Shown: positions 6,125-50,826 of the stretch, in pieces
Position numbering within the stretch: position 1 is the first letter of the stretch
Layout: every line of letters begins with the position of its first letter
DNA from: Methylomonas sp. EFPC3
GTDB lineage: Bacteria; Pseudomonadota; Gammaproteobacteria; Methylococcales; Methylomonadaceae
Reading direction: 5' to 3'
NCBI RefSeq assembly: GCF_029643245.1
Contig: NZ_CP116398.1
Location: 3,902,372 to 3,966,371 of the forward strand
Length of the DNA stretch: 64,000 bases
Program-made: the position numbers and the translations under genes
Notes under the pieces: generated by a model
What the model was told of the DNA's origin: nothing
The model's database searches: none
What the model saw: only the letters and a program-made list of their open reading frames with translations

Positions 6125-9100
6125 TCACACAGTGGGGTTGGCGTTGTTGAGCAGGTGGATCAAGGCGTCGAGTATCGCGTTGGCGACCGCGTGCGGCGGC
6201 AATTGGTAGAAAGCCTGCCAGGCCAGCGAGACGCATTCTTCGTAGTGGTCGCGGTATTGCGGATGCCGTTGCAACCAACTGATTCGCACCGCGTGACCGA
6301 TCAGAATATCGGTGACCAGCGTGTCGTCGATATACAGCTCCGGATTCTCCTTGACGATGGAGGCCAGTGCGCGCAACGCTTCCACACTCAACTGCCGATA
6401 CACCGGCGCCTGAATCTTGTTCAGGATATGGTTGATATGCAGGCGGAAGGTTTGTTCCCCGGCGGTCATCTGCGCCAGCATCATTTCACTGTCGATACGG
6501 CGCTTGCTGTTGTATTTCTCGCCGACCATCAAGCCCTTGCAATGGTGCAGCAAAGTCCACAAACCGCTGAAAAAGGCTTCGTTTTCGCGGCCGACGCTGC
6601 CTTGCTGTTCGCGCCAGGCATACCAATCTTCGGCCCCGGCGCGGTCTTTCGGGTCCATGGCTTCCGGAAAGCGGGCCGCGGCCAGATCGCGTTGCGGGCC
6701 TTCGTAATTCAAGGTCTCGACTTGGCCGAGCTGATTCTCGCTGTTGTTATAGTCTTCCAGCGTTTCCCGGACCAGCGTTGCGACCTGATGCGGCGGTAGC
6801 GATAGTATGTCGTTGAAGGCCTGATCCAGCGAAGAGCTGTGCAAACGCTTGTAGCGGGCGATGATCAATTGCAGGATGTGGCCGACGCGGATGGTGTGCA
6901 TGTCGGCGAACAGTTCCGGCTTCAGCTTGATCAGCATGCCCAGGTAGAGAATCAATTCCTGGATGATGATTTGCTGGCTGCTGTCGCCGGGATTGAAGGT
7001 GCGGATCGTTTCCAGGATTTGCCAGGAATCGGTCGGCCGCCGCAAGGTGGCTTTACCGCTGTAGGCGCGGCCCACGGTCAGGCCGTGTTGGCGCACCAGG
7101 ATCTCGGTGGCGGCCTGTTCCAGGTTGATGTCGTATTTTTCCAGCAAGCCGGCGCAGCGGCGTACCAGATACCAGGCATGGCAATCGCCGGCGCGGGCGT
7201 AGACTTCCTCCAGCAAGTCGCGCACCCGGCACGGTGTACCTTCGCCATTGCGTAGGCCAGTGTCGAAGTCGAGGCCGTGGCGTTGGCATAACAGGCTTAA
7301 CGCTTCCAACTGGGCATACAGGTTGGGGTTGGTCTGCAAAAGATCGACCAATTGCTCGTCGCCGCCGATTTCCCATTCGGTCACCAGCAGGTTATCGACA
7401 GCCTGCAGTGTGGTTGCATCGCCGCTGGGCAGGAGCTGGGCGAACGGCCGCTCGCCTTCTTCCCAACTGGCCTCGGAGAATTTGAAATCGTGCAGGTAAC
7501 CGATGCGCTCGCGGGCGGCCGACGCGACTAAGTCGGTCAGCAAACCGAGCGAGGCGCGTACCCCTTCCAGGGTGCCTTGGCGCAATTGCGCGATGAAGTT
7601 CAGTAGCACCTCGCGGTCCGCATTTTGCAGCATGTTGTGGCGAATGTTGATCGCCAACAACGGCGGCGCGGCGCTGTCGCAATGGTTACTTAGGTAAGTC
7701 AGCTCCATGCGCAGGCGCTGGATCAGCAGTTGGTTGTCCATCGCCAGATAGAACCCTTTCTGGTTCATGAATTGCGGCAGGAACAACAAAGGTTCGCCGG
7801 CCAGCAGATACAATTTGGAGGTGGATAGCGTGCGCAATTGCCGCAACGGGCGGCCGGTCAGGCCGATCCGGTCGTTACGGCCGACCTGGTGGTAAGCCGC
7901 GGCCAATTCGCTGGCGTCGCGGACCTGAATCGGTGCGATTTCGGTCAGGGTTTGCGCCGGAATGCCCAGTGCGCGCAATTCGTCGCGCACCTCGTCGTCT
8001 TCGGCCAACAAGGCGATCTGTACGGTAGCGGCGGCGTGCAGCCGGTTGGTCTTGTAACGGCCCAGCGGGTCGATATCGTCCAGGCCGATCAAGCCGTCCT
8101 GCAACAGGCCACCGAGGATGTACAGGCTTTGCGCCCAGACCAGCGGCACGTTCTCGTTGGCGATCCGGGTTTGGCTGTGCGGGTGGCGTTTTTCGGCGGC
8201 GATGGCGGACTCCGGCACGATGTACAACTCCGGCAACAGCCACTGGCCGTTGTGTTCCACCAGCAAATCGTCCAGTTTACGCCGGTAGTCGCCGACGCCT
8301 TCGCTGTCTTCGGCAAACAGTTTGTTCAGTAGCAGGTAGCAGAAAAACAGCGGCCATTCGCATTCGATGTCCATGAATTGCTTCAATTCACTGGGTTCGT
8401 AATGCAGGCGCTGATGGTCCTCGATCACCGTTTGGTGGCCGTCGAGCAGAAAGCGTTTGCAGCCGTAACGGCCTTGCAGTTTCTCGACGATCAAGCGCTC
8501 GGTGCGGGCGCGCAGCTCCGGGTTGTCGACGGCAAAGGCGGGGAAACCGGTCACGCTCAAAACGGCCGAATCGACTTCCTTGGAGATCGATTCCCGCGGC
8601 AGCAGGGATTCCAGCGTGATCCGGCTGCGGGCGATATCGTCGCTGATAACATGGATCACCGCGGTCTGGCCGCCGTCCTTGCCGAATAAATTGAAGCCGG
8701 ACATGGCCTCCAACGCCGCTTTGGCCATGCCGATCGAGCTGGCGTTGAGTTCGGCGATGCCGTGGTTCATTTTGTTGCCGCGCTCCCAAATGCCGTAATC
8801 CGGCGTGCGGTAGGCGCGGCTGATGTAGTGCACCAGATTCTGCACGAAGTTGACTTCGTCGGTGGTGAACACGATCCGCAGCCCGGACGCGGTCATTTGC
8901 GCCAGCATCAACAAGAACAGCGAGGTGGCGTCCAGTTGCAGATGGCCCCATTCGCTGTCGCCGACCACGACTTCGCCGGTTTGGGTGTTGTACTTGGCGT
9001 GCAGCGCGTCCAGCGGGTCTTGGCTATGTTTGAATTTTTCGACCTTGGCCGCCTGACGCATCATCGCAATCAGCAAGCCGCGCATCAGTTTGACCACGCT

Positions 9101-38931: not shown

Positions 38932-39633
38932 ATGGCGATTAATATGAACAAGCTAAAGCTAGCCCTGGTTTTGATGTTGGTGTCCGCAACTGCGTGGGGA
39001 GGCTCGACCCAGTCCGGGCAACAGATTCAGGATGCAATTAACCAATTTGTCAGGTCGACATTGGAAGCTGGGGGGAAATACGAGATTAATCTGACGCCAC
39101 TCGATCCGCGTCTGCAATTGCCCGTCTGCGAACAAGCATTGCAAGTGTTTGCTCAAACCGGCGAAATCAAACCCGGGCGTAACACCGTCGGCGTCCGTTG
39201 CTACGGCGACAAGGGCTGGACGATATACAGCACCGTGTTGTTGAAGTCATTTAAAGACGTGCTGGTGTTGAATAAGTCTATGCAGCGAAACGACATTATT
39301 CGGGCGGAACATTTGACTTTGGAGACCCGCGATGCCGGCATGTTACCGCAGGGATACCTCGCCGACATGAGCGATGTATTGGATAAGCAGGCAGCCCGCA
39401 ACATCCCTGCCGGTAGCGTTTTGAATCGGCAGCATGTAGCGGACCCTACAGTGGTTCGCCGCGGCGAACGAGTCAATATCGAGTCCAGTAAGGCGGGCGT
39501 CGTGATCAGCGCGATGGGAGCAGCGCTGGGCGACGGCGCGAAAGGGCAGAAAATCAGCGTGCGGAACCTGTCCTCCAATCGCGTGATTCAAGCCGTCGTG
39601 GTGAATGCCGGCCAGGTTTCGGTTAATTTTTAA
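38932..39633 (+). CDS. flgA: P-ring chaperone FlgA
   Basis: This 233-residue periplasmic protein helps FlgI assemble. A signal peptide lies within residues 1-23. The SAF domain in the C-terminal half has NIPAGSVLNRQHVADPTVVRRGERVNI in pieces and the final VRNLSSNRVIQAVVVNAGQV. A second start at 38944 is possible. It diverges from cheV and heads flgA-flgM-flgN-ycgR. Confidence 0.94.
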   Translation: MAINMNKLKLALVLMLVSATAWGGSTQSGQQIQDAINQFVRSTLEAGGKYEINLTPLDPRLQLPVCEQALQVFAQTGEIKPGRNTVGVRCYGDKGWTIYSTVLLKSFKDVLVLNKSMQRNDIIRAEHLTLETRDAGMLPQGYLADMSDVLDKQAARNIPAGSVLNRQHVADPTVVRRGERVNIESSKAGVVISAMGAALGDGAKGQKISVRNLSSNRVIQAVVVNAGQVSVNF

Positions 39634-39641
39634 AATGTTGC

Positions 39642-39668
39642 TAAAGGAATTTACTATGATGCCGCTAA
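39642..39668 (+). promoter_or_regulatory. Sigma-28 (FliA)-like promoter of flgM
   Basis: TAAAGGAA, 11 bases and GCCGCTAA match the FliA consensus at most positions with exact spacing. It lies 34 bases before flgM, so FlgM would be made under the sigma factor it inhibits. Confidence 0.75.
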
Positions 39669-39702
39669 CTGCTTTAGATAAAACTCACCTGGGAATTTCG
39701 CC

Positions 39703-40005
39703 ATGGCTATCGAATCAATCAGCGGCAAGCCTGTCACCACTTCAATACCCGCAAAAGCCGGGGTTAAAGATGCGGCCGAGCCTAAACAACGGACCGAGAC
39801 CAGCGCCGTTACCGACACTGTCGAGATCACCGCCACCGCCCAAGATATCAAAACGGCTGCTGCCGGCGTTTCGGCGCCACTGGTCAATGAAGACCGCGTA
39901 GCGGCGATTAAAGCGGCTATTCAGGCTGGCAGCTACCAAGTCAACGCAGAGCGCGTGGCGGAAAAGATGCTGCAGTTCGATCAACAGTTACCCGACAGTA
40001 CATGA
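39703..40005 (+). CDS. flgM: Anti-sigma-28 factor FlgM
   Basis: This 100-residue protein binds FliA until the hook is finished and is then exported. The first half is disordered and rich in Lys, Thr and Pro. The C-terminal half has the FlgM helices RVAAIKAAIQAGSYQVNAERVAEKML in pieces. It has its own FliA-like promoter and ends five bases before flgN. Confidence 0.92.
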   Translation: MAIESISGKPVTTSIPAKAGVKDAAEPKQRTETSAVTDTVEITATAQDIKTAAAGVSAPLVNEDRVAAIKAAIQAGSYQVNAERVAEKMLQFDQQLPDST

Positions 40006-40009
40006 CTTT

Positions 40010-40504
40010 ATGATAGAGAAAACATACCCGATCACTGAAAAACTGCTCGCCAACGGATTAAGAGCGGCCCAAAATTTGTTTGAGTTGTTAACCATCGAGT
40101 CCGATAAACTCAAGCAGAAAATCGATCCGGAAGCGATAGCCTCCATCGCGGCCGGTAAAAGAGACTTGGTGGCGCAGTTGGAGCAATTTACCAAACAGTT
40201 GGGCCAAGTTTTAGCAACCGAGCAGTTGACCGTCGGTAGTGACGGCATCAAAAAATATCTGGCCAAAGCCGGCGCTGCCGGTATCCATGTCGATGGCACT
40301 TGGACCAGTTGGGGCGATCTCGCCAAGTTATCTGAAAATTGCCGAGCGCTGAACGAGCAAAACGGTGCCAGTATCGCGTTGCTAAGCCGGCATACCCAGC
40401 GTTCTTTGCAAATACTGCGCGGCAAATCGCCGCTTGCGGCCACTTACGGACCGGATGGCGTAACCCGTAACGAGCTGTTTTCGCATACTTTAATTTCAGT
40501 GTAG
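40010..40504 (+). CDS. flgN: Flagellar chaperone FlgN
   Basis: This 164-residue helical chaperone keeps FlgK and FlgL ready for export. It is almost all helix, with the LAAGKRDLV-type block seen here as IAAGKRDLVAQLEQFTKQL near residue 44. It lies directly after flgM, the standard position. Confidence 0.88.
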   Translation: MIEKTYPITEKLLANGLRAAQNLFELLTIESDKLKQKIDPEAIASIAAGKRDLVAQLEQFTKQLGQVLATEQLTVGSDGIKKYLAKAGAAGIHVDGTWTSWGDLAKLSENCRALNEQNGASIALLSRHTQRSLQILRGKSPLAATYGPDGVTRNELFSHTLISV

Positions 40505-40538
40505 ACTGAGCGCCGAATTACTTTACGGGCCGCTCGCC

Positions 40539-41318
40539 ATGCTGAGTAAGTTGAAGCATCTTTTTTCCAAAGCCAGCGCATCCACGCCTGAAGTTGATGA
40601 CGATTTATTGGCTTTTGAAAATCCCAATTTCATTACCGATCCCGATAAAATCGCCCGCCTGCTCGGAGAAATCGAAAGCAGTTCGCCGTTGTGTACGATT
40701 CAAATAGAAGGTTTTGCAGAAGATTTCAGCTCGTCGGTCTTGAGCATCAAGTTGGACAAAAACGCCATCATTTTGGACGAATTGATGCCCCAGCACGGCA
40801 ACGATTTGTTGCTGCGTTCCCGGGCGCTGAAGTTATCGACCTTTCACAAAGGGATACATTTGTCCTTCCATTTGGCCAATATCGAGGTCGGCCATTCCAA
40901 AGGCATCAACTACTACAAGGCACCCCTGCCGGATCGAGTGTTTTATCCGCAACGCCGACGTTCGCCGCGACTGGAAATCAGCGCCATAGATATCCCTTTT
41001 AGCGGTGTGGTTCAGCGTACCGGGATATCGATCGGCGGTTACCTGTTCGATCTTTCGAGAGGTGGGGCCGGTGTCAGCGTACCCGTCAACAGAGCGCGGG
41101 TGCAGCGCGGCGATGTGATCAAAAATTGCCAGCTTACTTTCGACGATTACGTGATGGATTTCGAATTTGCCGTCCGCTTTGTAAAGCCGGTTTCCGCGAC
41201 GTCTCCCAAAGTGCAAATCGGCGGAATTTTCGAAGGGCTTTCCGCGAGAAGCCAATCGAAACTATCCTATTTCATCACATCGCTCGAACGGGTCGAGATT
41301 CGAAAACAGAAAGCCTGA
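40539..41318 (+). CDS. ycgR: c-di-GMP flagellar brake protein YcgR
   Basis: This 259-residue protein slows the motor when cyclic di-GMP is bound. A YcgR_N domain occupies about residues 25-135. The PilZ domain has the RxxxR-type motif in RRRSPR near 140 and DLSRGGAG near 175. It lies 34 bases after flgN. The truncated GGDEF-EAL protein at 2664 is one possible source or sink of the signal. Confidence 0.9.
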   Translation: MLSKLKHLFSKASASTPEVDDDLLAFENPNFITDPDKIARLLGEIESSSPLCTIQIEGFAEDFSSSVLSIKLDKNAIILDELMPQHGNDLLLRSRALKLSTFHKGIHLSFHLANIEVGHSKGINYYKAPLPDRVFYPQRRRSPRLEISAIDIPFSGVVQRTGISIGGYLFDLSRGGAGVSVPVNRARVQRGDVIKNCQLTFDDYVMDFEFAVRFVKPVSATSPKVQIGGIFEGLSARSQSKLSYFITSLERVEIRKQKA

Positions 41319-41357
41319 GCCGCTTGCTATGGTAAAATGCGCCTGATTAATCACTTA

Positions 41358-41434
41358 GTCCCGGTAGCTCAGTAGGATAGAGCGGTCCCCTCCTAAGGGA
41401 CAGGTCGTACGTTCGAATCGTATCCGGGACGCCA
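41358..41434 (+). tRNA. tRNA-Arg (anticodon CCT)
   Basis: The seven-base acceptor stem GTCCCGG / CCGGGAC, the D arm, the anticodon stem GTCCC / GGGAC with loop CTCCTAA (anticodon CCT at 41392-41394), the T arm with GTTCGAATC, and an encoded CCA are all present. It reads AGG codons. Its 3' half from 41386 forms the left attachment repeat of the integrated element, and the gene remains complete. Confidence 0.97.
41386..41434 (+). repeat. attL, left 49-bp direct repeat
   Basis: These 49 bases are the tRNA-Arg(CCT) 3' half from the anticodon stem to CCA. They match 48808-48856 exactly, and the flanking bases differ on both sides. Confidence 0.9.
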
Positions 41435-41512
41435 CTCTTTTTTAGATAAATCAGGTGTTTAGCCTAAATAACACCCTAAGAGAAAACCTTAGGTTGACAC
41501 TCTGTCCTTCTC

Positions 41513-41525
41513 AAAAAGGACAAAA
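41513..41525 (+). repeat. Possible left arm-type site
   Basis: AAAAAGGACAAAA recurs as AAAAGGACAAAA at 48706-48717 near the other end, and inverted as TGTCCTTTTT at 41600-41609. Such repeats near both attachment sites may be integrase arm-binding sites. Confidence 0.35.
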
Positions 41526-41767
41526 TTAGGACAAGTAATTTCTTACTTGCCGTTCTCAGGGTACACCAAAAACCGCTCACCTGACCATATCTTTTTTGCT
41601 GTCCTTTTTAATGCGCTAAATCGTGCATTATCCGCAATGCACACACCAACCAAGTAGTAACCCTCGAAGACGCCAAGGTCCTAAAAGGCCAACGTGCTTG
41701 GGGAAAGATCAAGGCAACAGCACAGGAACAGAGGGAACTCTGGAGGGACATCGGGGAGGCTCTTCTA

Positions 41768-42157
41768 GTGGGCAGGAGGTTACATAAGAGTGACAAACTG
41801 TTCGGCCAGTGGATCAAGGAGAAGGGGTTCGGTGATATGGATAGGAGGGAGCGGGCTGACGCAATGTGGTTAGCCCAGATACTGTCCTCGCCGGGGACAG
41901 TAGACTTCCCAGAAAGCCAATCAGACCCATCACATCTCCGTACTTGGTACAACGAGAACGCCAAGGTCCAGCAACTCCCAGAGGAACTCCAAGACCTCAC
42001 CATAGAGTCCCGCCCATCCATTGAGTTAGACCAAAGATCAGCCGAGCGAATCGCCAAGGTAATCAACCGGGCGAAGGCTGGAGGCGAGGGAAGTGAGATC
42101 GCAAAGAAGCACGTTGAGAGTATCGCAAAGAAGCATGGGGGCTTACCTTGGAGGTAA
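41768..42157 (+). CDS. Element protein, unknown, unclear 5' end
   Basis: At least 129 residues are coded from a GTG at 41768, following AGG-rich sequence. The frame stays open upstream to 41612 with coding-like content (for example VVTLEDAKVLKGQRAWGKIKA) but no ATG, GTG or TTG. The product therefore either starts at GTG, uses an ATT at 41627, or has lost its start. It is charged and helical, with no motif that I recognise. Arg is often coded by AGG, the codon read by the tRNA in which the element sits. Confidence 0.6.
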   Translation: MGRRLHKSDKLFGQWIKEKGFGDMDRRERADAMWLAQILSSPGTVDFPESQSDPSHLRTWYNENAKVQQLPEELQDLTIESRPSIELDQRSAERIAKVINRAKAGGEGSEIAKKHVESIAKKHGGLPWR

Positions 42158-42168
42158 ACCTCGATACC

Positions 42169-42321
42169 ATGTGGCTTGCTGAGCTACGTCCCGTAATAAT
42201 TACCGAACTCGATAAGGACATCACCCGTATTGATGCCATGTGGTGGGCGGCGTCTTACAACGATTGTAAGATGGCACCCCTTTTGTTTTTGTCACAAAAA
42301 TGTCTTACCTGTTCTGACTGA
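42169..42321 (+). CDS. Possible 50-residue element protein
   Basis: A short frame follows the previous gene by 11 bases, with GGAGG somewhat far upstream. It begins MWLAELRPVIITELDKDITRID and ends in a Cys-containing tail. Its start is helical and plausible, but its length makes it uncertain. Confidence 0.3.
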   Translation: MWLAELRPVIITELDKDITRIDAMWWAASYNDCKMAPLLFLSQKCLTCSD

Positions 42322-42630
42322 CGATGACTGGCCGATACCCCCCGTGGGGGTGGCCGATGGGTCTCCGTTTGTAATCGAGTGGGCTCAATACTCAGGAGAA
42401 CAGGTGGGAGGCAATGGGGTAGCCGGGGTAGCAACCTGATTGACTGAGAGCCGATTTCTGGGCTCTGAGCTACCGCCATTTTTGGCGTTTGACATTACCC
42501 AGAAATGGGTAGTGGTATCTCATATCTTACAACTTAAAAGACATATTCTATCCGGCCTCTTGACTCGTCTAAAAAGTCGTCTCATAATTGATTCCATCAA
42601 ATCTTTAGAACAAGTGAGACGGTGGTTTAT
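42322..42630. other. Non-coding segment before serine recombinase
   Basis: About 310 bases without a convincing gene. It holds a CCCCC/GGGGG inverted repeat near 42337-42352. A nested cruciform lies at 42427-42474, with outer arms GGTAGC / GCTACC and an inner AGAGCC / GGCTCT. An inverted repeat CGTCTCA / TGAGACG ends just before the recombinase start. Confidence 0.5.
42578..42621. promoter_or_regulatory. Possible resolvase (res-like) site
   Basis: CGTCTCA and TGAGACG are separated by 30 bases immediately before the serine recombinase gene. Resolvases commonly bind such inverted sites next to their own genes. There is no direct evidence of recombination. Confidence 0.35.
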
Positions 42631-43212
42631 ATGTCAATCAAGATCGGTTACGCCCGAGTAAGCACCACAGGCCAAAGCCTGGAGACACAGTTAGCAGCAC
42701 TCCAGGCGGCAGGTTGTACCAAGATTTATCAGGAGAAGTTATCCGGTAAGAGCACCAGCAACCGGGAGCAATATCAGGCTGCACTGGATTACATCCGAGA
42801 GGGCGATGTTCTGATTGTTACCAAGCTGGACAGGTTGGCCCGTTCGATTAGTGACCTATGGGAAACCGTGAGAGCTATCGAGCAAAAAGGCGCGGCTCTT
42901 AAAGTTCTCGATCAGCCGCTTATCGATACCACCACCAAAGAAGGTAAGTTAGTTATGACCATGTTCGGCTATGTCGCTGAGACTGAGCGTAGCCTAATCC
43001 TTGAGCGCACCCAAGAAGGTCGAGAGAAAGCCAAAGCGGCAGGCGTTAAGTTCGGCAGGAAGGAAACCATCACACCGGAGATTGCCCAAGCGGCTCTGGA
43101 AGCCTTCAAGGCTGGCAATGAGTCTTCAGCCGTGATTGCCAAGCGGCATGGCCTCAGCCGTGCATCACTGTACCGACTTGCCAAAGAGGCAGGGATTAAA
43201 CGGGAGAATTGA
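42631..43212 (+). CDS. Serine recombinase, Tn3 resolvase/invertase family
   Basis: This 193-residue site-specific recombinase is complete. The catalytic Ser is in IGYARVSTTGQS near residue 10. TKLDRLARS near 66 carries the conserved Arg residues, and the E-helix region FGYVAETERSLILERTQEGREKAKAAG is normal. A C-terminal HTH with IAKRHGLSRASLYRLAKEAGI binds DNA. The ATG at 42631 aligns with family starts. In a tyrosine-integrase element it may resolve multimers or invert a segment. No mobile-element ends directly flank it. Confidence 0.93.
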   Translation: MSIKIGYARVSTTGQSLETQLAALQAAGCTKIYQEKLSGKSTSNREQYQAALDYIREGDVLIVTKLDRLARSISDLWETVRAIEQKGAALKVLDQPLIDTTTKEGKLVMTMFGYVAETERSLILERTQEGREKAKAAGVKFGRKETITPEIAQAALEAFKAGNESSAVIAKRHGLSRASLYRLAKEAGIKREN

Positions 43213-43925
43213 GAATATAGTTCTCTCGGTCGAATCCTGGAGCGAATCACTCTGGGCAATGGGATCGCCTAGGGTACTGAGCGATTGAGCCAAGGATATA
43301 CGATTTTAACTATAAACTGAATCGGCACCTCCAGGGAGAGAGACCACGCCCAAGGATATACCGTCAGTTCCCGTTATGCGGATACGACAGTAGCACCCAC
43401 AGGATCACATAACGTGCCCTGACGTGCCGGTACCAAAGATTATTATCAACTTAGTAATAACTATTGATGATGATAGCTATAGATTCACCGTTGGAGTTCA
43501 TACGGGGACACTATAGGAGCAACTCAAGCCAACCGTATGTTTACCAACGGAATAACCTTGAGGGGGACGGGGGAGCCTTTAAGGATAAACATCGGCTGTA
43601 TGCTACTTGAGAGCCTTTTGGGGTTGCCAATAGCCCGCCTAAAAGTTCACTCATGGGGTTATTTATCGGGATGGGATAGGCTGGGTTTCATGCACCTTCA
43701 TGCCTGTGAGTGAACTTTTAGGCGGGCTCCCATCGGCCCAGGTTTCACCCCATCTGTTGATGTACCTTAGTTTCACCCCAAGAGGCAGCACATAGTTGCC
43801 CCTATTGATCCCCCTAGAGTTTTTTCGACAAGAGGCAGCACATGGTTTTTTCGCCGATAGATGCCTCTTGAGCGCCTTTGCGCCCTCAATTTCTTCCATC
43901 AACCCAATACTGCACCCATGAAAAC
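43213..43925. other. Repeat-rich non-coding segment of the element
   Basis: About 0.7 kb without a supported gene. It contains CAAGGATATAC twice with a 60-base period (43291 and 43351), an A+T-rich patch near 43437-43490, and a 21-bp perfect inverted repeat (43633-43653 / 43707-43727). GTTTCACCCCA occurs twice (43742 and 43770). AAGAGGCAGCACAT occurs twice (43780 and 43830), with an inverted GCCTCTTG near 43863. Such density suggests a control or origin region. Confidence 0.6.
43633..43727. repeat. 21-bp perfect inverted repeat, 53-base spacer
   Basis: The arms GCCCGCCTAAAAGTTCACTC(A) and their exact complement enclose 53 bases. The length is well beyond a simple terminator. It could be a cruciform, a replication or transfer site, or the ends of a very small insertion. 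Confidence 0.75.
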
Positions 43926-44288
43926 GTGAAAGTAAATAGTACCAATGCGGTCTCTATTACCTTCAGGGTAGACCCGCTAACCAAAGCCAAGATGGACTGG
44001 ATCAATGCCCAATATCCAGAGTTCACCTGTTCGGGCTCCATGATGATCCGTCGAGCCTTATCGCACTACCAGAGCTACTTAGAAACTCTCCTCCCCGATC
44101 CCGAGTTGTTACGCCTGGAGGGGTACCAACTGAAAGCCGCAGCAACCGGAGAGGGTATCCCCTGGAGAACTCAGCCCGATTTCACCAGGAAACCCGGCAA
44201 GCCTCTCAGTGAGTACCTGAAGGAGACAGGCCAACGGAGAATCAACAAGCTACTCACCACAGACCCCGACTGGAGGCTTAGGCAATGA
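43926..44288 (+). CDS. Element protein, ribbon-helix-helix-like
   Basis: This protein of about 120 residues has an N-terminal AVSITFRVDPLTKAKMDWI followed by SGSMMIRRALSHYQSYLE, a strand-helix-helix pattern like RHH repressors. The C-terminal part is basic. The GTG at 43926 is my preferred start; an upstream TTG at 43878 is possible. Its stop overlaps the next gene's start as ATGA. It may regulate the operon that it heads. Confidence 0.6.
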   Translation: MKVNSTNAVSITFRVDPLTKAKMDWINAQYPEFTCSGSMMIRRALSHYQSYLETLLPDPELLRLEGYQLKAAATGEGIPWRTQPDFTRKPGKPLSEYLKETGQRRINKLLTTDPDWRLRQ

Positions 44289-44476
44289 TGCGTACCCATC
44301 CAGGTACCAAACCCAAGGTCTACCACAAAGACCTCACAAAGAATGACCTTAATCAACTGATTATCGAGATAAGGCACGGCGATGGAATTATCACCCCCAG
44401 GGCAATCGCCTCAAGGTGGGGTATTTCCCAGGCCTCAGCCGCTCGCTTAATCATGATCCACAATCACCCGGAGTAA
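44285..44476 (+). CDS. Small HTH-like element protein 1
   Basis: This 63-residue protein has a basic start, then LIIEIRHGDGIITPRAIASRWGISQASAARLIMIHNH, a helix-turn-helix with G-x-I at the turn. It overlaps the preceding gene by four bases. Its layout resembles the next two genes. Confidence 0.65.
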   Translation: MMRTHPGTKPKVYHKDLTKNDLNQLIIEIRHGDGIITPRAIASRWGISQASAARLIMIHNHPE

Positions 44477-44482
44477 ACAATT

Positions 44483-44695
44483 ATGGCAACGAGAGAATGC
44501 CCACAAGAAGGAACCACCTATTCGGAAGGTACTGAGGTACCCATCAGCCGGCAAGAGGGAATTATTGACGCACTAAAGGACAACATCAGGGGGGGTTATA
44601 GGCCGCCTGATTTTGAAGTCGCATTTCGATACAACGTTTCTGGCCCTATGGCTCGTTCGCTACTGGCTCGAGCCAAAGCAAAGGCCGGCAAATAA
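44483..44695 (+). CDS. Small HTH-like element protein 2
   Basis: This 70-residue protein starts with a PQEGT segment and an IPISRQEG-like strand, then IIDALKDNIRGGYRPPDFEVAFRYNVSGPMARSLLARA. The second part has the same helix-loop-helix outline as its neighbours on both sides. It starts six bases after the preceding gene. Confidence 0.6.
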   Translation: MATRECPQEGTTYSEGTEVPISRQEGIIDALKDNIRGGYRPPDFEVAFRYNVSGPMARSLLARAKAKAGK

Positions 44696-44699
44696 GCCC

Positions 44700-44894
44700 A
44701 TGACGGCCCCAGAATACCCACCAGAAGGGACGGATATTCCCCTAGATTGGCAAGCAGCCACCATCCACCAGCTCAGGGAATACCGAAAGGTTCACTATAC
44801 GATGCCGGTAGAGGAAGTAGCCCGAGTCTACCAAGTACCGCTCACTTTAGCCGTCACCCTTCTTGAAAAATCCGCCCTTCCACCAACCCAATAA
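44700..44894 (+). CDS. Small HTH-like element protein 3
   Basis: This 64-residue protein starts YPPEGTDIPLDWQAATIHQLREYRKVHYTMPVEEVARVYQVPLTL in pieces. It shares with protein 2 the (Y/C)PxEGT-x-(I/V)P start and the later VA-x-x-Y-x-V block. It begins five bases after protein 2. Function is unknown; DNA binding is inferred. Confidence 0.6.
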   Translation: MTAPEYPPEGTDIPLDWQAATIHQLREYRKVHYTMPVEEVARVYQVPLTLAVTLLEKSALPPTQ

Positions 44895-44903
44895 TTTCAC
44901 CCA

Positions 44904-45152
44904 ATGGCATACCCAATATACACCGTACAACTTGCCGGCTTTACTGCCGGTGGTATCCCATCCAATGGCACTGGCTTGATCGCCGCCAAAACCATCACGA
45001 TCTATGACGATGGCGCTATCGGCTTCACCAATGCCGCCGGCCAGCCCAAGAAGATGGCAGATAATCCCGAGTTCAACGCCTTGTTAGTGCAACTCATTCA
45101 AGGAGCTAATGCTCCCGGCAACTTAAACGCTAAGAAATTTCACCAAGCCTAA
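44904..45152 (+). CDS. Element protein, unknown, beta-rich
   Basis: This 82-residue protein begins AYPIYTVQLAGFTAGGIPSNG and continues with alternating short strands and Gly-rich turns, ending in a helix. It contains no Cys. No family was recognised. It belongs to the same plus-strand run, 15 bases before the next gene. Confidence 0.55.
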   Translation: MAYPIYTVQLAGFTAGGIPSNGTGLIAAKTITIYDDGAIGFTNAAGQPKKMADNPEFNALLVQLIQGANAPGNLNAKKFHQA

Positions 45153-45167
45153 CCAGGATCAACGTAA

Positions 45168-46187
45168 ATGAGCAACGATAATTCAGCCGTATCAACCGAT
45201 AATATCTCCGTTAGATTCTCCGGCGGTGTCCATCATGTGCAAGTCGGTAGCATGGCAGACGGCCAAAGCACCCCGACTGGCACCTTGACGAGCCCAGCCG
45301 TTCAAGTCACTGACACAGTTCACTCCATCCAATTCGGTGGCGCTAATCCAGGGTTCTCCTCTCAAGGCTTGAGCCAGTTCAATACCTCTGACTTTGCACG
45401 GGATACCGGCAGCCCCTTGAGTACCGCCCGCAATAACGGCTTTCCTGCCGGTGGCGACTTAAGGCTTGATTCTGTTATCAAGGCAGGGGGTACCGAATTA
45501 ACCATCGAAAACGCCATGAACATGGGTTGGGTCCGCCAAGCCGCCAACGGTTTCGAGTGGATAGGCCCAGGCAGCCACCCAGAAGTTAAAAAAAATCCCG
45601 ATAGCTCCCAGATAAGCCCAGCACAGAACACCCAGGAGCCGCCGACCGATCAACGGGAAGAGTCTCAGCAGAAGTTGCCGGAAGGTGTCGAGCCGTTCAC
45701 TCCTGAAGTAGAGGCCCAAGTGGCCCAGGCCATCAGCGGCATACCTCAGCCCATGATTAGCGAGGCTGTGGTTCATGTACTGGAGCACGGCCCCGAGAGT
45801 TTGAACTATGACCAGCTCGCCAGCCTAACCGGCCTGTCTGCGGCTGAGGTACAACAACGGGCCGCCTCTGTGATTGGGGCCTTTACCGCTCAGGCGGACA
45901 GTATTGCCAAGTCGATGGGCATACAGGAACCCCAAGAGCTCTGGAACTGGCTGCACACTAACCGAGGGGATGCCATGAAGAGAGCCCAAAGAGACATGGC
46001 GTTTAACCGGGATACCCGGATGCTCCGCCAGCTTATCCAGCATGCAAAGGACTCGCTCGGCCCCGATGAGGGCTCCCTCAAAGCCGCTGGCTATCAAACC
46101 CACGTTAACGACTATGGTGAACTATTGGTCAACATCAACGGTGCCTGGACGCTCGCCAGTGTCGCCCAGAAGATGCGCCTAATCTGA
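45168..46187 (+). CDS. Largest element protein, unknown
   Basis: This 339-residue protein has a Ser/Gly/Thr-rich, beta-type N-terminal region with two related segments, SVRFSGGVHHVQVG near residue 15 and VTDTVHSIQFGGANPGF near 46. A Pro/Gln/Glu-rich linker lies around 140-175, and a helical C-terminal domain of about 150 residues includes YDQLASLTGLSAAEVQQRAA. Such a layout is seen in virion or scaffold-like proteins, but I see no specific match. It has no signal peptide. It is the main cargo candidate of the element. Confidence 0.6.
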   Translation: MSNDNSAVSTDNISVRFSGGVHHVQVGSMADGQSTPTGTLTSPAVQVTDTVHSIQFGGANPGFSSQGLSQFNTSDFARDTGSPLSTARNNGFPAGGDLRLDSVIKAGGTELTIENAMNMGWVRQAANGFEWIGPGSHPEVKKNPDSSQISPAQNTQEPPTDQREESQQKLPEGVEPFTPEVEAQVAQAISGIPQPMISEAVVHVLEHGPESLNYDQLASLTGLSAAEVQQRAASVIGAFTAQADSIAKSMGIQEPQELWNWLHTNRGDAMKRAQRDMAFNRDTRMLRQLIQHAKDSLGPDEGSLKAAGYQTHVNDYGELLVNINGAWTLASVAQKMRLI

Positions 46188-46298
46188 GGATTTAACTCAG
46201 GCAACTAAAAACCAGGGTGAACCCGTAGGAGCCCCACCAAGGCTCAGGGTTCGCCCTTTTCTTTCCAGCATTTAATCCACTCACAAGCAGTTCAATCA

Positions 46299-46529
46299 AT
46301 GGCAATCTCACCACGCCAAGCCATCGCCAACCATTGCAAGGGTTGTATTTACGACCCGAAAGCGGGCGGTACTTGGAGGCAACAAACGGAAGGCTGCACG
46401 GTCACAACCTGTGAACTCTATAGCTTCCGCCCGATCACCTCAAAAACCAAGCAAACCCTCAAGCAAACCCTCGCGACCCTAGGCAACCCCTTGGCGGTCC
46501 CCGTTTTGTCTGCGGATTTAGTCGCCTGA
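46299..46529 (+). CDS. Cys-rich small protein, phage-type
   Basis: This 76-residue protein has HCKGCIYD, GTWRQQTEGCTVTTCELY and RPIT. The four-Cys layout (C-x2-C, then C-x4-C) followed by a basic patch is common in small phage and mobile-element proteins and probably binds a metal. The next start follows by ten bases. Confidence 0.6.
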   Translation: MAISPRQAIANHCKGCIYDPKAGGTWRQQTEGCTVTTCELYSFRPITSKTKQTLKQTLATLGNPLAVPVLSADLVA

Positions 46530-46538
46530 GTTAAATCC

Positions 46539-46793
46539 ATGACAAGGCCAGCGGATAGAATGATGTGGTTCTGGTCGGAACTCAGCAACCGACTACAGGA
46601 CTTCAAGAATAACCCCAACGATGAAAAAACCAGATTACTCCTGGAGATAATGGCCCAGTATCGCGAGGCCGCCGATAGGGGCTTAGTCGGTATCCAGCCC
46701 ACAGGCTCCACCGATGGTAGCGGGGTAGTTCTCCAGCATGCCGACAATTACCCGGTTATCAACGCCTATGACTGGTACCGGGGCCACTCATGA
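46539..46793 (+). CDS. Element protein, unknown
   Basis: This 84-residue protein has a helical N-terminal half (MMWFWSELSNRLQDFKNN) and a C-terminal half without clear motifs. Its TGA overlaps the next gene's ATG, so the two are coupled. No family was recognised. Confidence 0.5.
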   Translation: MTRPADRMMWFWSELSNRLQDFKNNPNDEKTRLLLEIMAQYREAADRGLVGIQPTGSTDGSGVVLQHADNYPVINAYDWYRGHS

Positions 46794-47164
46794 GTAAGCG
46801 CACTACCGTGAAGCTTCTCACCTTCAACTTGGGCGGTACCCAGATCAGAGGGATACTTCAAGGCCAAGAGGCTTGGCTATTGGTCGGCGATATTGCCAAG
46901 GCTTTTGGCAGTACCCCTCCCAGCCATTACTCAATATTGGCAGGGATGGACAAGGCCTTAATATGGATAGATACCCCGAGAGGCCCGAGGGAGGCTCTGG
47001 TGGTTAACCAAGAGTCCCTCATTGCGTGGGCCTATCGGAGCCGGAAGGCTGCAGCGGGCAACCTGAGGAAGTGGCTTGCCGATCAGATCAAACCGGGCTT
47101 ACTCCAGAGCATCACCTTTAATTCAGTAGAGGGTGGGCTGATTGTCGGCAAGGTGGGGGCTTAG
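46790..47164 (+). CDS. Bro-N domain protein
   Basis: This 124-residue protein matches the Bro-N/antirepressor outline: EAWLLVGDIAKAFG near residue 30, a variable loop, then VVNQESLIAWAYRSRKAAAGNLRKWLADQIKPGL. Bro-N proteins in phages act as antirepressors or DNA-binding regulators. No second domain is present. It ends the plus-strand run and converges on a minus-strand gene, overlapping by four bases. Confidence 0.7.
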   Translation: MSKRTTVKLLTFNLGGTQIRGILQGQEAWLLVGDIAKAFGSTPPSHYSILAGMDKALIWIDTPRGPREALVVNQESLIAWAYRSRKAAAGNLRKWLADQIKPGLLQSITFNSVEGGLIVGKVGA

Positions 47165-47451
47165 GCTAGCTCACCAACAACATCAGTCCGTCTGGCACGT
47201 TGGGCGGCCATGTCGGTGTAGTGAAAAGAAAACCGATGCCAATGGAAGCTAACCTCTCGGGGGCCATGCACTGTTCTTTGTAACTGTAGGTCTGTCCCCT
47301 TAGGGTGAACCTCAAGGTAAAACTCATGATTCCCCAGGAACAGCACCTTAGTGGTAGTGTCGAGCATAAGAGGCACCTCCCCAGAGTCGTTGATCGAAGG
47401 GATTGCGCCAAAGCCAAAAGCGATAGATTTACGTGTAATTTCGATATACAT
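47161..47451 (-). CDS. Element protein, unknown
   Basis: This 96-residue protein begins YIEITRKSIAFGFGAIPS and is largely beta, with FLGNHEFYLEVHPKG and FHWHRFSFHY. The AAAGGAAA-type purine run upstream supports the start. It lies downstream of the integrase on the same strand. No family was recognised. Confidence 0.5.
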   Translation of the reverse strand: MYIEITRKSIAFGFGAIPSINDSGEVPLMLDTTTKVLFLGNHEFYLEVHPKGTDLQLQRTVHGPREVSFHWHRFSFHYTDMAAQRARRTDVVGELA

Positions 47452-47486
47452 AGTTAGGTTTCCTTTAGTGAGATATTGAAAGTTGA

Positions 47487-47690
47487 TTAATGCGTTGTAT
47501 CAGTTGGGCCAAGGTCTTTGGTTAGTACCGTGGTGAAAGCCTCCAGCCCCTTACCATCCCGCCGCCATTCAACGGTATAAACTACTGCCGCATGGGGAGG
47601 GATGTCTTTAAGTTTGGCGTCGGCAGAGTCACGGTAGTCAGTGCCCAGATAATGCCAACCATCATCGAGAAAATGCCTAGATGTTGTCAT
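47487..47690 (-). CDS. Small element protein, unknown
   Basis: This 67-residue protein begins TTSRHFLDDGWHYLGTDYRDS. It lies ten bases after the integrase stop and may be co-expressed. Its size would suit an excisionase, but no HTH is visible, so the role is open. Confidence 0.45.
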   Translation of the reverse strand: MTTSRHFLDDGWHYLGTDYRDSADAKLKDIPPHAAVVYTVEWRRDGKGLEAFTTVLTKDLGPTDTTH

Positions 47691-47699
47691 AATGCCCCC

Positions 47700-48683
47700 T
47701 CAGCCAAGCCTTAGCGCCAAGTCACTGGCCTTAAGGTGGGTGTATCGCTTGAGCATGGATAAGGTCTTATGCCCGGTAATGGCTGAGACCTCCATTGTGT
47801 TGAGCCCCTTCTCAAATAATCTTGAGGTGGCCTCATGGCGTAAGTCGTGAAACCGTAGGTCTTTGAGGTTGGCCCGCTTACAGGCACGGCTGAAGGCTTG
47901 GGACACTGAGTCGGGCTTGGTGGTGAATACCGGCCCTTCAGTTTTAACGCCTACACTGTTGAGCACCTCCAAGGCTCTGGAGGATAACGGTACCTCCCGA
48001 GAATCACCGTTCTTGGTATCCGGGAGGAATACAACACGCTTGGCGGTGTCGATGTTCTCCCAGGTCATACCCAGGAGCTCAGATCGACGCATGCCGGTTT
48101 CGACGGCAAGCTGTACTATCTGGCGAACTTCTTGGGTGTCCTGGAGGTTGGACAGGAGTAAGGCCAGTTCACCCGATTTAAGCCGCCGATCCCGCCCTTT
48201 CATTGCTGAAGGCTTGCGGATTAACTGGACAGGATTAACGGTAAGCGGGTAATTCCACTCCTTGATTATTATCGAGAAGATATGGGATAGATTATTGAGC
48301 TCTCGAATAACCGTACCCGGTGCTTTGCCTTCCTTAAGTCTTGAATCCCGATAGGCGGCTATGTGTCGGCTCTGAATATCCGACAGTACCAAATTACCGA
48401 GAGCACCCTTGAGCTGCTTTAAGCGCCTAAGTTCTGATAGGTGGCATTTTTTGGTTGGTGAGACTTCAACTTGGTACCGGTCAATCAGTTCACCCAGGGT
48501 AGCTCTATCGGTTTCAACTGGAGCGGGTGCCGAGAAGCTCCCCCGATCAATCTCCGCCTCAATCTGCCGAGCCCAGACTTTAGCCTCCGTTTTGGTACGG
48601 AAAGACTTGGTTAAGTCTGGGTGGCCTACCCGTTGTATCCGGGCCTGCCAAGAGCCGCTTTCACGCTTTCGAAATGTAGCCAT
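47700..48683 (-). CDS. int: Tyrosine integrase
   Basis: This 327-residue recombinase drives integration at tRNA-Arg(CCT). An N-terminal arm-binding domain with SGSWQARIQRVG is followed by a core-binding SAM-like domain around residues 65-160. The catalytic residues are present: Arg in TGMRRSELLGMTW, Lys in TKNGDSREVPL, HxxR in FHDLRHEAT, His in ITGHKTL, and the nucleophile Tyr in KRYTHL. It reads away from the right attachment repeat, 124 bases inside it. Confidence 0.95.
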   Translation of the reverse strand: MATFRKRESGSWQARIQRVGHPDLTKSFRTKTEAKVWARQIEAEIDRGSFSAPAPVETDRATLGELIDRYQVEVSPTKKCHLSELRRLKQLKGALGNLVLSDIQSRHIAAYRDSRLKEGKAPGTVIRELNNLSHIFSIIIKEWNYPLTVNPVQLIRKPSAMKGRDRRLKSGELALLLSNLQDTQEVRQIVQLAVETGMRRSELLGMTWENIDTAKRVVFLPDTKNGDSREVPLSSRALEVLNSVGVKTEGPVFTTKPDSVSQAFSRACKRANLKDLRFHDLRHEATSRLFEKGLNTMEVSAITGHKTLSMLKRYTHLKASDLALRLG

Positions 48684-48705
48684 TTGTTCTCCTAAAAAAT
48701 ATAGT

Positions 48706-48717
48706 AAAAGGACAAAA
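48706..48717 (+). repeat. Possible right arm-type site
   Basis: AAAAGGACAAAA matches the sequence at 41514-41525. It lies between int and the right repeat, so it could bind integrase or overlap the int promoter. Confidence 0.35.
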
Positions 48718-48807
48718 GGCCAACTTTAGGGGTTACTCCTGGGGGTGCTTTCTTAGGTTGTTTTGACTTATCAATCAATTACATGGCTGATTTTGTGCCG
48801 GTCCTTA

Positions 48808-48856
48808 TCCCCTCCTAAGGGACAGGTCGTACGTTCGAATCGTATCCGGGACGCCA
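48808..48856 (+). repeat. attR, right 49-bp direct repeat
   Basis: This is an exact copy of the 3' half of tRNA-Arg(CCT), including CCA, without a 5' half. It is a tRNA fragment only. Confidence 0.92.
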
Positions 48857-48914
48857 TGAATCTGATCCTGATTTTATTGAAATCGCGGCGTCAGTCGCAG
48901 GTTTGAGCACACAT

Positions 48915-48943
48915 AAAAAAGCCGGCAAGCAGCCGGCTTTTTT
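48915..48943 (+). terminator. Rho-independent terminator
   Basis: AAAAAAGCCGGC, a five-base loop and GCCGGCTTTTTT form a strong terminator usable on both strands. Before integration it would have lain just after the tRNA gene. It now follows attR and also ends the minus-strand VPLP-CTERM gene. Confidence 0.9.
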
Positions 48944-48963
48944 GTTTCTTGCGGTAGGTTTGG

Positions 48964-49611
48964 TTAGGCGGATGGGCTGTTTTTGCGCTTCCAACCCAGG
49001 ACGCCTACTACGCCGCTGAGAAACAGCCATGTCGCTGTTGGCAACGGTACCACGGTCGGAATAATTGGCGATACGCTTAAGCTGCCGGTATAGGTGCCCC
49101 CGTTCGACAAGCCTTTGATAGAAAGCTGGTAATTGCCGGCCCCTAAAACGGGTATGTTGTTCAACGAAATCAAGTTAAACGTGGTCAATAGTTCCTGGTA
49201 AAACGGCGGAACATTTGGGAAAGGCAAATTAACCAAGGTCGGAGTCGATGCAACCGAAAACGACGTCAACGAACCGGTGGCTATGACTGCCGAAGTGGCG
49301 TCGAGCAATTCCACGCTGGCGCTAGAGATACCGTTAGTGCTGGTTACAGTAGCGTTGCTGAAATCGGTCGTCAGACTAACCAATGTTTGGACGTTTTGAA
49401 AACTTACTGCCCCTGATAAATTGTAGGCATCGTAAACATCGTCAATCACAAAGTCGTAGATTTTACTGAACGGACCTACACCTACGGTATTGTCGATCAC
49501 CGTCGCAGCGGCCGGTGTAAGTAGGGTAGACGCTGCCGCCTCAGGCAAATAGCCCGCGCCGGTCAGTGCCAGACAGCCCGTCAAAAGATAACTTATTTTG
49601 TTTTGTTTCAT
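48964..49611 (-). CDS. VPLP-CTERM exported protein 1
   Basis: This 215-residue protein has a signal peptide of about 27 residues ending near EAAAS. A Ser/Thr/Asn-rich beta-type middle is followed by the sorting tail VPLPTATWLFLSGVVGVLGWKRK, given here as a VPLP motif, a membrane helix and a basic end. This is the PEP-CTERM-type signal processed by exosortase. The ATG at 49611 is preferred because an earlier in-frame start would bury the signal peptide. Ligand and surface role are unknown. Confidence 0.8.
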   Translation of the reverse strand: MKQNKISYLLTGCLALTGAGYLPEAAASTLLTPAAATVIDNTVGVGPFSKIYDFVIDDVYDAYNLSGAVSFQNVQTLVSLTTDFSNATVTSTNGISSASVELLDATSAVIATGSLTSFSVASTPTLVNLPFPNVPPFYQELLTTFNLISLNNIPVLGAGNYQLSIKGLSNGGTYTGSLSVSPIIPTVVPLPTATWLFLSGVVGVLGWKRKNSPSA

Positions 49612-50322
49612 AGTCGATTCTCGCGAGAGTAAATTTGTGCCAAGGCCTCTGAACCATTCTTTAGCCGGCATCAGACAAAAGTGCAGCCGCTCATAACAGC
49701 GGGTCTGGTTCAAGCATCAAAGTGCGATCTGCCACATCGATAAGTTAGGAGGCGGGCGAGTCGCTCCCATACAGGCGCCGTCCCTTTCCTGTCCCCCATG
49801 CTCCGAAGGGTAAACGTCATTTCCTGGTGCGGTTGTTCGCAGGTGTTTTTACCCGTCTGTCGGCCTTTTTGTCTGGACAGAATTATAGACAGCAAGTGTG
49901 GGGAAATTCGTAAGTTGATGAACTTTAATCGAATCTTAATTTGTTACTAATCAATGGTCCGGAAATAAGGGATAGAATCTTTTACATGGTTTTTGTGGGG
50001 TGAATGTCGTGGCCACCGCTCAGCGGATCAGCAGTCATGCGTTGGCTTCGCGGCAATGTATGCGTTGCAGTCTGGTTGTACTTTACGTTCAAGAACGACG
50101 GGTGCTAACTGGCGTATGACCATTCCCTGTCGGATTAATTTGAGCGTTAGGCTCTGCAAAGGTTTGGCGAGGCGGTTCAACAATTTGGAAGTGTCCAAAT
50201 TCCGATCGGCCTCCGCGCAAGAACTCTTTGAACACCTGTCTTCGGCAATGTTGTAGACAGGCGGGCTAGAGTAAGTTGGCCGAGGACGGCCGTTTGTTAA
50301 CGTAAATGTACGGAGAAAATCA
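49612..50322. other. Divergent gap between two VPLP-CTERM genes
   Basis: About 710 bases separate the two divergent genes. Short frames exist on both strands, but none has a convincing ribosome site or protein-like composition. I see no clear riboswitch, sigma-54 site or terminator. It presumably carries both promoters. Confidence 0.5.
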
Positions 50323-50826
50323 ATGAAAATGATTTCATATTTTAGGCTTTGGCTTGCCGTTTGCCTGTTTGCAGTGTCGACTGCAAGCTCGGCCGGCATT
50401 ATCTGGGAATCGACGGATGGAGATATCAATTTCTTGTCCGTCGGATTTTCGTCACCGTTTCCGACTGGCGATACTTTTGGCATCTTCTCGGCTACTGCCG
50501 ATTTGTCGAGTGCGGCACCGTTATACACTTTTTCGGGCGTCGGTAACTTTGCCACATCAAGCCCGTTCAAATTGGGTTTGCTGACTGTCAGTGGCTGGGT
50601 CAGCGAGAGTGCTAATTCCAATCTAGCTGGTAACACTTATTTGCTGAGTTTTGCTAAACCGGGTATCAGCAATACGCTAAGCCTGCTGTATGGCTTCGAT
50701 ATCAAACCGGCCGCTGACCAAGATCCGGTGTCTGGTGTGCCTCTACCTGCTTCAATCTGGTTTATGACCAGTGCGTTGCTGGGTTTCCTGTATGTGGGAC
50801 GCAATAAATCTAATCTGGTCGCTTGA
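50323..50826 (+). CDS. VPLP-CTERM exported protein 2
   Basis: This 167-residue protein has a signal peptide ending near SSA at residue 24. A Ser/Gly-rich beta domain follows, then the tail VPLPASIWFMTSALLGFLYVG with a basic end. It diverges from the other VPLP-CTERM gene. Sequence similarity between the two outside the tail is low, so they are not simple duplicates. Confidence 0.78.
   Translation: MKMISYFRLWLAVCLFAVSTASSAGIIWESTDGDINFLSVGFSSPFPTGDTFGIFSATADLSSAAPLYTFSGVGNFATSSPFKLGLLTVSGWVSESANSNLAGNTYLLSFAKPGISNTLSLLYGFDIKPAADQDPVSGVPLPASIWFMTSALLGFLYVGRNKSNLVA

Follow-up and report, generated by a model that had tools for sequence, protein, structure and literature searches.

The segment under study (43213–43925) is the largest intergenic gap in a small mobile island that occupies a tRNA gene within the window, the term used here for the whole 64-kb stretch of DNA that was analysed. 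This integrative element, of approximately 7.47 kb (41386–48856), occupies tRNA-Arg(CCT) and is delimited by a 49-bp direct repeat and by comparison with a same-species genome in which the site is empty. The tRNA gene (41358–41434, plus strand), identified by ARAGORN, by the Rfam tRNA model and by the repeat, is intact, and its 3′ 49 bp (41386–41434) form one att copy; the other, again 49 bp of the tRNA 3′ end, lies at 48808–48856 (plus strand). In the same-species genome (G011), the flanks 39200–41434 and 48808–50357 adjoin, sharing one 49-bp copy, at 98–99% identity, and neither the segment nor the RHH-like or 339-aa protein of the island has a match there. Site-specific insertion is borne out by these att repeats and by a tyrosine integrase (47700–48683, minus strand; Phage_integrase 3e-32, Int_N 4.2e-10), whose gene points inward from beside the att copy at 48808. 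The 12-mer AAAAGGACAAAA at 41514–41525 (plus strand), found again without change at 48706–48717, is a candidate integrase arm site.

The segment sits between the gene of a small serine recombinase of the resolvase/invertase type (42622–43212, plus strand; Resolvase 2.8e-42, gamma-delta resolvase 1.7e-31) and a series of small genes, orphan or DNA-binding-like, that are read in the same direction. The original prediction placed an RHH-like gene just downstream; a gene is indeed present there, with a GTG start at 43926 (43926–44288, plus strand, 120 aa), and its RHH identity is unproved. The protein has no Pfam match (queried with a 16-residue upstream extension) and no NCBIfam match, and its AlphaFold model is poor (mean pLDDT 50), with helices at residues 17–29 and 41–55 that would fit an RHH fold after an N-terminal stretch; the models of this protein and of the 339-aa protein are too poor for use. 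It is followed by a 63-aa HTH-like gene (44285–44476, plus strand; MarR_2 9.3e-4, under the Pfam cut-off). A Bro-N-like gene lies at 46790–47164 (plus strand; Bro-N 3.1e-4, 21.7 bits against a cut-off of 25.6).

Six island proteins (RHH-like, 339-aa, 84-aa, 76-aa, resolvase and integrase) were sought in sequence collections, and kin were found for the resolvase and the integrase; part of the 76-aa protein matches 16 phage records at less than 60% identity. Outside its own genome, the resolvase reaches at most 54% identity among the matches listed. For the RHH-like protein, no relative besides its counterpart in the sister island described below was found among 310 other genomes of the order and 368 other genomes of the class (overlapping sets), in genome or viral contigs searched with peptide patterns, or in plasmids or phages. 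No relative of the 339-aa protein was found in 236 other genomes of the family, genome contigs, viral contigs or phages, and none of the 84-aa protein in 236 other family genomes or viral contigs. Scans of island proteins against Pfam and NCBIfam, and of 10 of them against PHROGs, brought up no recognisable replication initiator, helicase, primase or relaxase; the original prediction had likewise recognised no initiator.

A stop-free frame of 173 codons (41636–42154; first ATG/GTG/TTG at 41768) shows a weak resemblance to GapS6a (E 0.061) and has no counterpart in the DNA of the sister island. Defence families gave two matches only, both weak (E 0.021 and 0.027).

Repeats, Folding and Short Sites in the Segment

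The repeats of the segment are real and non-random. The original prediction listed two 11-base repeats with a 60-base period, a 21-bp perfect inverted repeat, an A+T-rich patch and further direct pairs, all of which are present, the first two being somewhat longer than described. The periodic repeat, CCAAGGATATAC, is 12 bases long, with copies at 43290 and 43350 (43290–43361, plus strand; spacing 60). The perfect inverted repeat measures 22 bp, its arms (43632–43653 and 43707–43728) being separated by 53 nt, and it is the sole perfect one of at least 16 nt with a spacer below 300 in the 64 kb. The remaining direct pairs comprise CAAGAGGCAGCACAT[A/G]GTT at 43779 and 43829 (19 nt with one mismatch, 15 nt exact), GTTTCACCCCA at 43742 and 43770 (43742–43780, plus strand; spacing 28) and GTTTTTTCG at 43819 and 43845. 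The 9-mer CAAGAGGCA occurs in two direct copies (43779 and 43829) and in a third, inverted copy at 43862–43870, just 5′ of the next gene. Thus the segment holds direct repeats of 19, 12 and 11 nt, each in two copies, to which the 9-mer adds one inverted copy. The A+T-rich patch reaches 80% A+T across 40 nt from 43436, a value reached by 0.09% of the 40-nt stretches of the window; in 43436–43480 it contains an IHF-like site at 43444 with one mismatch and, by eye, short dyads.

Among 1000 dinucleotide shuffles of the segment, none contained three or more direct repeats of at least 11 nt (mean 0.053), one contained a 15-nt exact direct repeat and none a 22-nt inverted repeat. When 413 further stretches of 713 bp, drawn with overlap from the rest of the 64 kb, were examined in this way, the counts were 1, 4 and 0.

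The hairpin formed by the inverted repeat (43632–43728) folds with z scores of −6.5 (plus strand) and −9.2 (minus strand) against shuffles. It largely accounts for the folding of 43500–43925 (z −4.2), which falls to −2.5 here and −1.6 in the sister island once the hairpin is removed; the 5′ part, 43213–43640, reaches z −1.7. A long-range helix of 12 nt, GCCTTTTGGGGT/ACCCCAAGAGGC (43613–43624 with 43775–43786), is unchanged in both copies of the segment. Upstream of the resolvase gene, the noncoding block 42279–42621 is also strongly structured (z −4.4/−4.1 as RNA, −3.5 as DNA). When GTCT-type 12-mers resembling gamma-delta subsites were sought in 42201–42640 only, four of the five found lay upstream of the resolvase gene at 42532–42621. 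With a pattern chosen after looking and a one-sided comparison, this speaks only tentatively against a res site inside the segment, and the block is considered a candidate resolvase site without any firm claim.

The best promoter-like site of the region is the sigma-70-like TTGACT-17-CATAAT upstream of the resolvase (42560–42588, plus strand; 10/12), and a weaker one, CTGACG-16-TATTAT (43419–43446, plus strand; 9/12, not above chance), runs into the A+T patch. In total, three sigma-70-like sites were found in 42400–44000 against 2.0 expected. A simple sigma-70 scan found no site at threshold on the plus strand of 43740–43925, and a terminator scan found no terminator-like site in 42400–44000. 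DnaA-box-like sites occur at 0.54 per kb in the island versus 0.80 per kb in the window. Three of the four nic motifs sought were at or below window frequency; the fourth, an RSF1010-like 12-mer, appeared once with 3 mismatches against 0.25 expected. Rfam at E values up to 1 on 41000–49000 returned five matches, the tRNA and four weak ones, with neither C4 nor isrK immunity RNA among them.

Several identities for the segment were considered and rejected. All the Rfam matches fall outside it, so known RNAs were discarded. A MITE or REP element was rejected since the 22-mer arm (with up to 3 mismatches) occurs in its own genome in the two islands only, and no target duplication was seen by eye. 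Across 37 genomes of the genus, the arm was found in the two islands and at one further 3-mismatch locus, a 3022-bp stretch that two genomes have in common, where the match runs over the end of an unrelated ORF. The backward control pattern had no match in the 37 genomes, and by a rough estimate chance would supply one or two such matches. The inverted repeat has no GTT/AAC boxes of the kind found in integron attC sites, and no dif-like site for XerCD was found within 9 mismatches of 28. As for an invertible segment, the resolvase gene is flanked by weak inverted pairs only (20 nt at 80% and 16 nt at 81%), and the loop of the hairpin is not inverted in one island relative to the other.

A Sister Island in tRNA-His

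The original prediction suggested a search for the same repeats in similar elements and took their absence there as a refutation. The sole related element found, a sister island on the chromosome that also bears the window island, has the segment at 93% identity, so that in this one case the prediction withstands its own test. The sister island lies between two copies of tRNA-His (L005 7346–7421 and 15190–15265), and the blocks common to both islands are 94–98% identical, except for one block at the integrase end (85%). Beyond this sister, no relative of the segment was found in 200 other genomes of the family, in plasmids at blastn sensitivity or in phages; nine plasmid matches all fall inside the resolvase gene, and the whole island has no near match in plasmids. 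Together with its sister, the precisely bounded and variably present window island offers a small natural experiment on the requirements of such elements.

The sister island carries an insertion of approximately 1.26 kb (L005 9829–11090) between the segment and the RHH-like gene; its two ORFs look like an IS3-family transposase, and a GCAC repeat was seen by eye at its ends. The sister also lacks the stretch matching 44490–45278 of the window and the first GTTTCACCCCA copy (43742). At the start of the common resolvase module, different hairpins precede the same T-rich tract, CTTTTGTTTT, in the window (42245–42279) and in the sister (L005 about 8140–8165); judged by eye, they are possible cargo terminators at the module boundary.

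The common genes are mosaic, with 0 synonymous changes in three genes (approximately 210 synonymous sites) versus 9/83 in the RHH-like gene. The segment itself has changed unequally between the islands, its left half (43213–43541) showing 5/329 changes and its right half (43542–43919), with the hairpin and the operator-like repeats, 29/378 plus the insertion in the sister, so that the left half is better kept (p 1.3e-4). Of the 29 changes, 3 fall where the alignment crosses the IS junction into inserted sequence and 5 adjoin a block replaced after 43738, so that the true rate of the right half is slightly lower. Measured against pooled neighbouring synonymous sites (15/266), the left half changes less (Fisher p 0.01); against the synonymous sites of the resolvase by itself (4/141) it does not (p 0.46), nor does the right half change less than synonymous sites (p 0.34). 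Constraint is thus weakly visible on the side of the A+T patch, and none is seen on the side of the hairpin and the operator-like repeats. The inverted repeat, perfect in the window, is 91% in the sister, where neither of the two arm changes is compensated, so that the plus strand has G-U at one position and A-C at the other; this decay may be recent, because the insertion cuts the operon off from the inverted repeat. The segment looks noncoding, since the sole ORF of at least 55 aa that lies wholly inside it and is listed in both copies (58 aa) has pN 0.037 and pS 0.049.

The integrases of the window and of the sister (L005 14095–15078) look chimeric: they are nearly identical in their catalytic part (139/142 for residues 186–327) and agree at 48/57 positions at the N terminus, but at 34/98 over the core-binding domain. 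Within the genus, relatives of these enzymes occupy the same two tRNA genes, one in G177 at tRNA-Arg(CCT) (66%) and one in G153 at tRNA-His (59%), both with repeated tRNA ends. Core-binding domains agree at 67/98 positions between the window and G177 (both in tRNA-Arg) and at 60/99 between the sister and G153 (both in tRNA-His), compared with 30–40/98 for pairs across targets among these four. The more distant G278 integrase, whose gene stands beside tRNA-Arg(CCT), with a second att repeat not found there, breaks the pattern (38/97 with the window, 42/97 with the sister). The core-binding domain thus appears to track the target tRNA in two pairs, from which the link is drawn, and the comparison suggests that an island changed its target by exchanging this domain and how such islands may switch target tRNA. 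No other protein of the window island matches in the G177 and G153 islands at E 0.05. The G153 island carries a D5_N/DUF5906 protein (L051 11446–12975), so a satellite-like replication gene here travels on an element moved by a related integrase.

Possible Functions of the Segment

Tentatively, with a probability of about 0.4, the segment is interpreted as an intergenic region that controls the island's own genes, serving the downstream operon as promoter/operator and leader. This reading is preferred because repeats stand directly 5′ of the candidate RHH gene, in the interval from the resolvase gene to the operon, and because the segment occurs in both islands. RHH regulators often repress their own operon. 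A precedent is MobC of plasmid RA3, which is homologous to RHH factors and autoregulates from a palindrome in its promoter (PMC4175270). The RHH-like protein of the island, perhaps together with the 63-aa HTH-like protein, would bind the CAAGAGGCA boxes, which sit 56–147 bp 5′ of the RHH-like start codon, and repress its own operon; the candidate operator (43779–43870, plus strand) would comprise CAAGAGGCAGCACATRGTT at 43779 and 43829 and the inverted CAAGAGGCA at 43862. The long hairpin and the nested G-rich/C-rich structure lie in the untranslated interval that separates the resolvase gene from the operon, where they may hinder or terminate transcription coming from the resolvase promoter at 42560. 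Consistent with this control function are the placement of the best direct repeat, with the inverted copy as a third half-site, directly 5′ of the GTG start, the noncoding appearance of the segment, and a left half that changes less than pooled synonymous sites, if not less than those of the resolvase alone. Against it, the sigma-70 scan found no promoter overlapping the boxes, no terminator-like site was found in 42400–44000, and the promoter-like site at 43419–43446 lies far upstream; the inverted repeat has decayed in the sister, where the insertion parts the segment from the RHH-like gene; and the identity of the regulator is unproved. The synonymous-like rate of the half that holds the hairpin and the best repeat, as well as the lack of a promoter that stands out, weighs on every reading that supposes constraint. 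As a control region, the segment would be ordinary.

After the control region come, in rough order, an origin, relic DNA, an RNA regulator and an oriT without relaxase. The original prediction is supported in part: the segment does form part of a mobile element, although an orphan origin or oriT could look much the same as what is seen. The origin or transfer site that it suggested is not supported, given two direct copies per repeat, no recognised initiator or relaxase, and DnaA-box-like sites no denser than in the window; its iteron-like repeats do not make an iteron array, and no Rep protein was matched. Nothing found shows that the repeats start replication or transfer. An origin of the excised circle is nevertheless conceivable if unlikely: host proteins or an unrecognised island protein would open the A+T patch, the hairpin would serve as a single-strand initiation or control site, and the resolvase would resolve dimers. 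Few stretches of the window are as A+T-rich as the patch, which also has its IHF-like site; fewer changes have struck the left half than the right, a resolvase generally suits a circular replicating form, and the G153 island indicates that such islands can carry replication genes; set against this are the lack of a recognised initiator, helicase or primase among the island proteins scanned, a 339-aa protein whose model is too poor to fill that gap, the low copy number of the repeats and the DnaA-box-like sites, which are not enriched. A broader and quite improbable version would make the segment an autonomous maintenance site of an island family without recognisable initiator or relaxase, with a structured or RNA-controlled origin, host or orphan proteins, and the resolvase resolving multimers of the circle. 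Decaying or neutral intergenic DNA, made up of remnants of former modules without present function, is likewise unlikely, and a shade more so than an origin: the right half changes at a synonymous-like rate, a block has been replaced, and the sister lacks a GTTTCACCCCA copy and a stretch of the island and carries an insertion, but such an inverted repeat was absent from all 1000 shuffles and the left half is nearly unchanged.

Somewhat less probable again is an RNA regulator, in which a structured transcript across 43500–43870 would control the operon by pairing, after the logic of the P4 CI/seqA immunity RNA. The folding of 43500–43925, the helix unchanged in both copies, the Bro-N-like gene and the weak promoter-like site upstream at 43419 speak for it, and the Bro zones of satellites can hold immunity RNAs (PMC10111431). 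On the other hand, the segment drew no Rfam match at E values up to 1, folding is modest without the hairpin and in the 5′ part, and the arm changes of the sister are uncompensated, two sequences being too few for covariation. Least probable, and by our estimate very doubtful, is an oriT without its own relaxase that a visiting conjugative element would use, with the RHH-like protein as an accessory factor. Islands and plasmids with an oriT and no relaxase are known (PMC5704250; PMC4652767), the latter with a putative RHH specificity protein, and the island offers an inverted repeat near an RHH-like gene and the single RSF1010-like 12-mer. On the other side, no plasmid record is similar at blastn sensitivity outside the resolvase gene and no phage record is, the other three nic motifs are no more frequent than in the window, and the host genome has 0 matches to PF03432, the relaxase family searched, whose model was positive in 1 of 14 control genomes. 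An initiator-free origin or oriT would explain the movement of islands without recognisable replication or transfer genes.

Likeness to Known Mobile Elements

The island shares with relaxase-less integrative mobilizable elements such as MGIVflInd1 (PMC5704250) an integrase, no recognised relaxase or secretion gene, and a large noncoding region; those elements measure 18–33 kb, whereas the window island measures 7.5 kb and has no oriT similarity among plasmid and phage records. The island resembles RHH autoregulators such as MobC of RA3 (PMC4175270) in that its candidate RHH gene is directly preceded by repeated and inverted boxes; it differs in that the RHH identity is unproved, no relaxase gene is recognised beside the candidate and no promoter is recognised at the boxes.

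Gram-negative PICIs and P4-like satellites, as described in PMC10111431, resemble the island in their small size, their tRNA gene target and an integrase gene that points inward, the Bro-N-like gene being below cut-off here. They differ in primase/DUF5906, AlpA, late genes and C4/isrK RNA, which were not found in the window island; primase/DUF5906, AlpA and helper-derived late genes gave no Pfam match among 16 island ORFs, with PHROGs on 10. The island is not filed with these satellites because primase, AlpA, late genes and immunity RNA are missing, and as far as the evidence goes, it is a satellite-like integrative island. Its closest description is a PICI group in tRNA-Phe, reported in PMC10111431, that lacks a primase and uniquely encodes a resolvase, the combination that the window island also presents.
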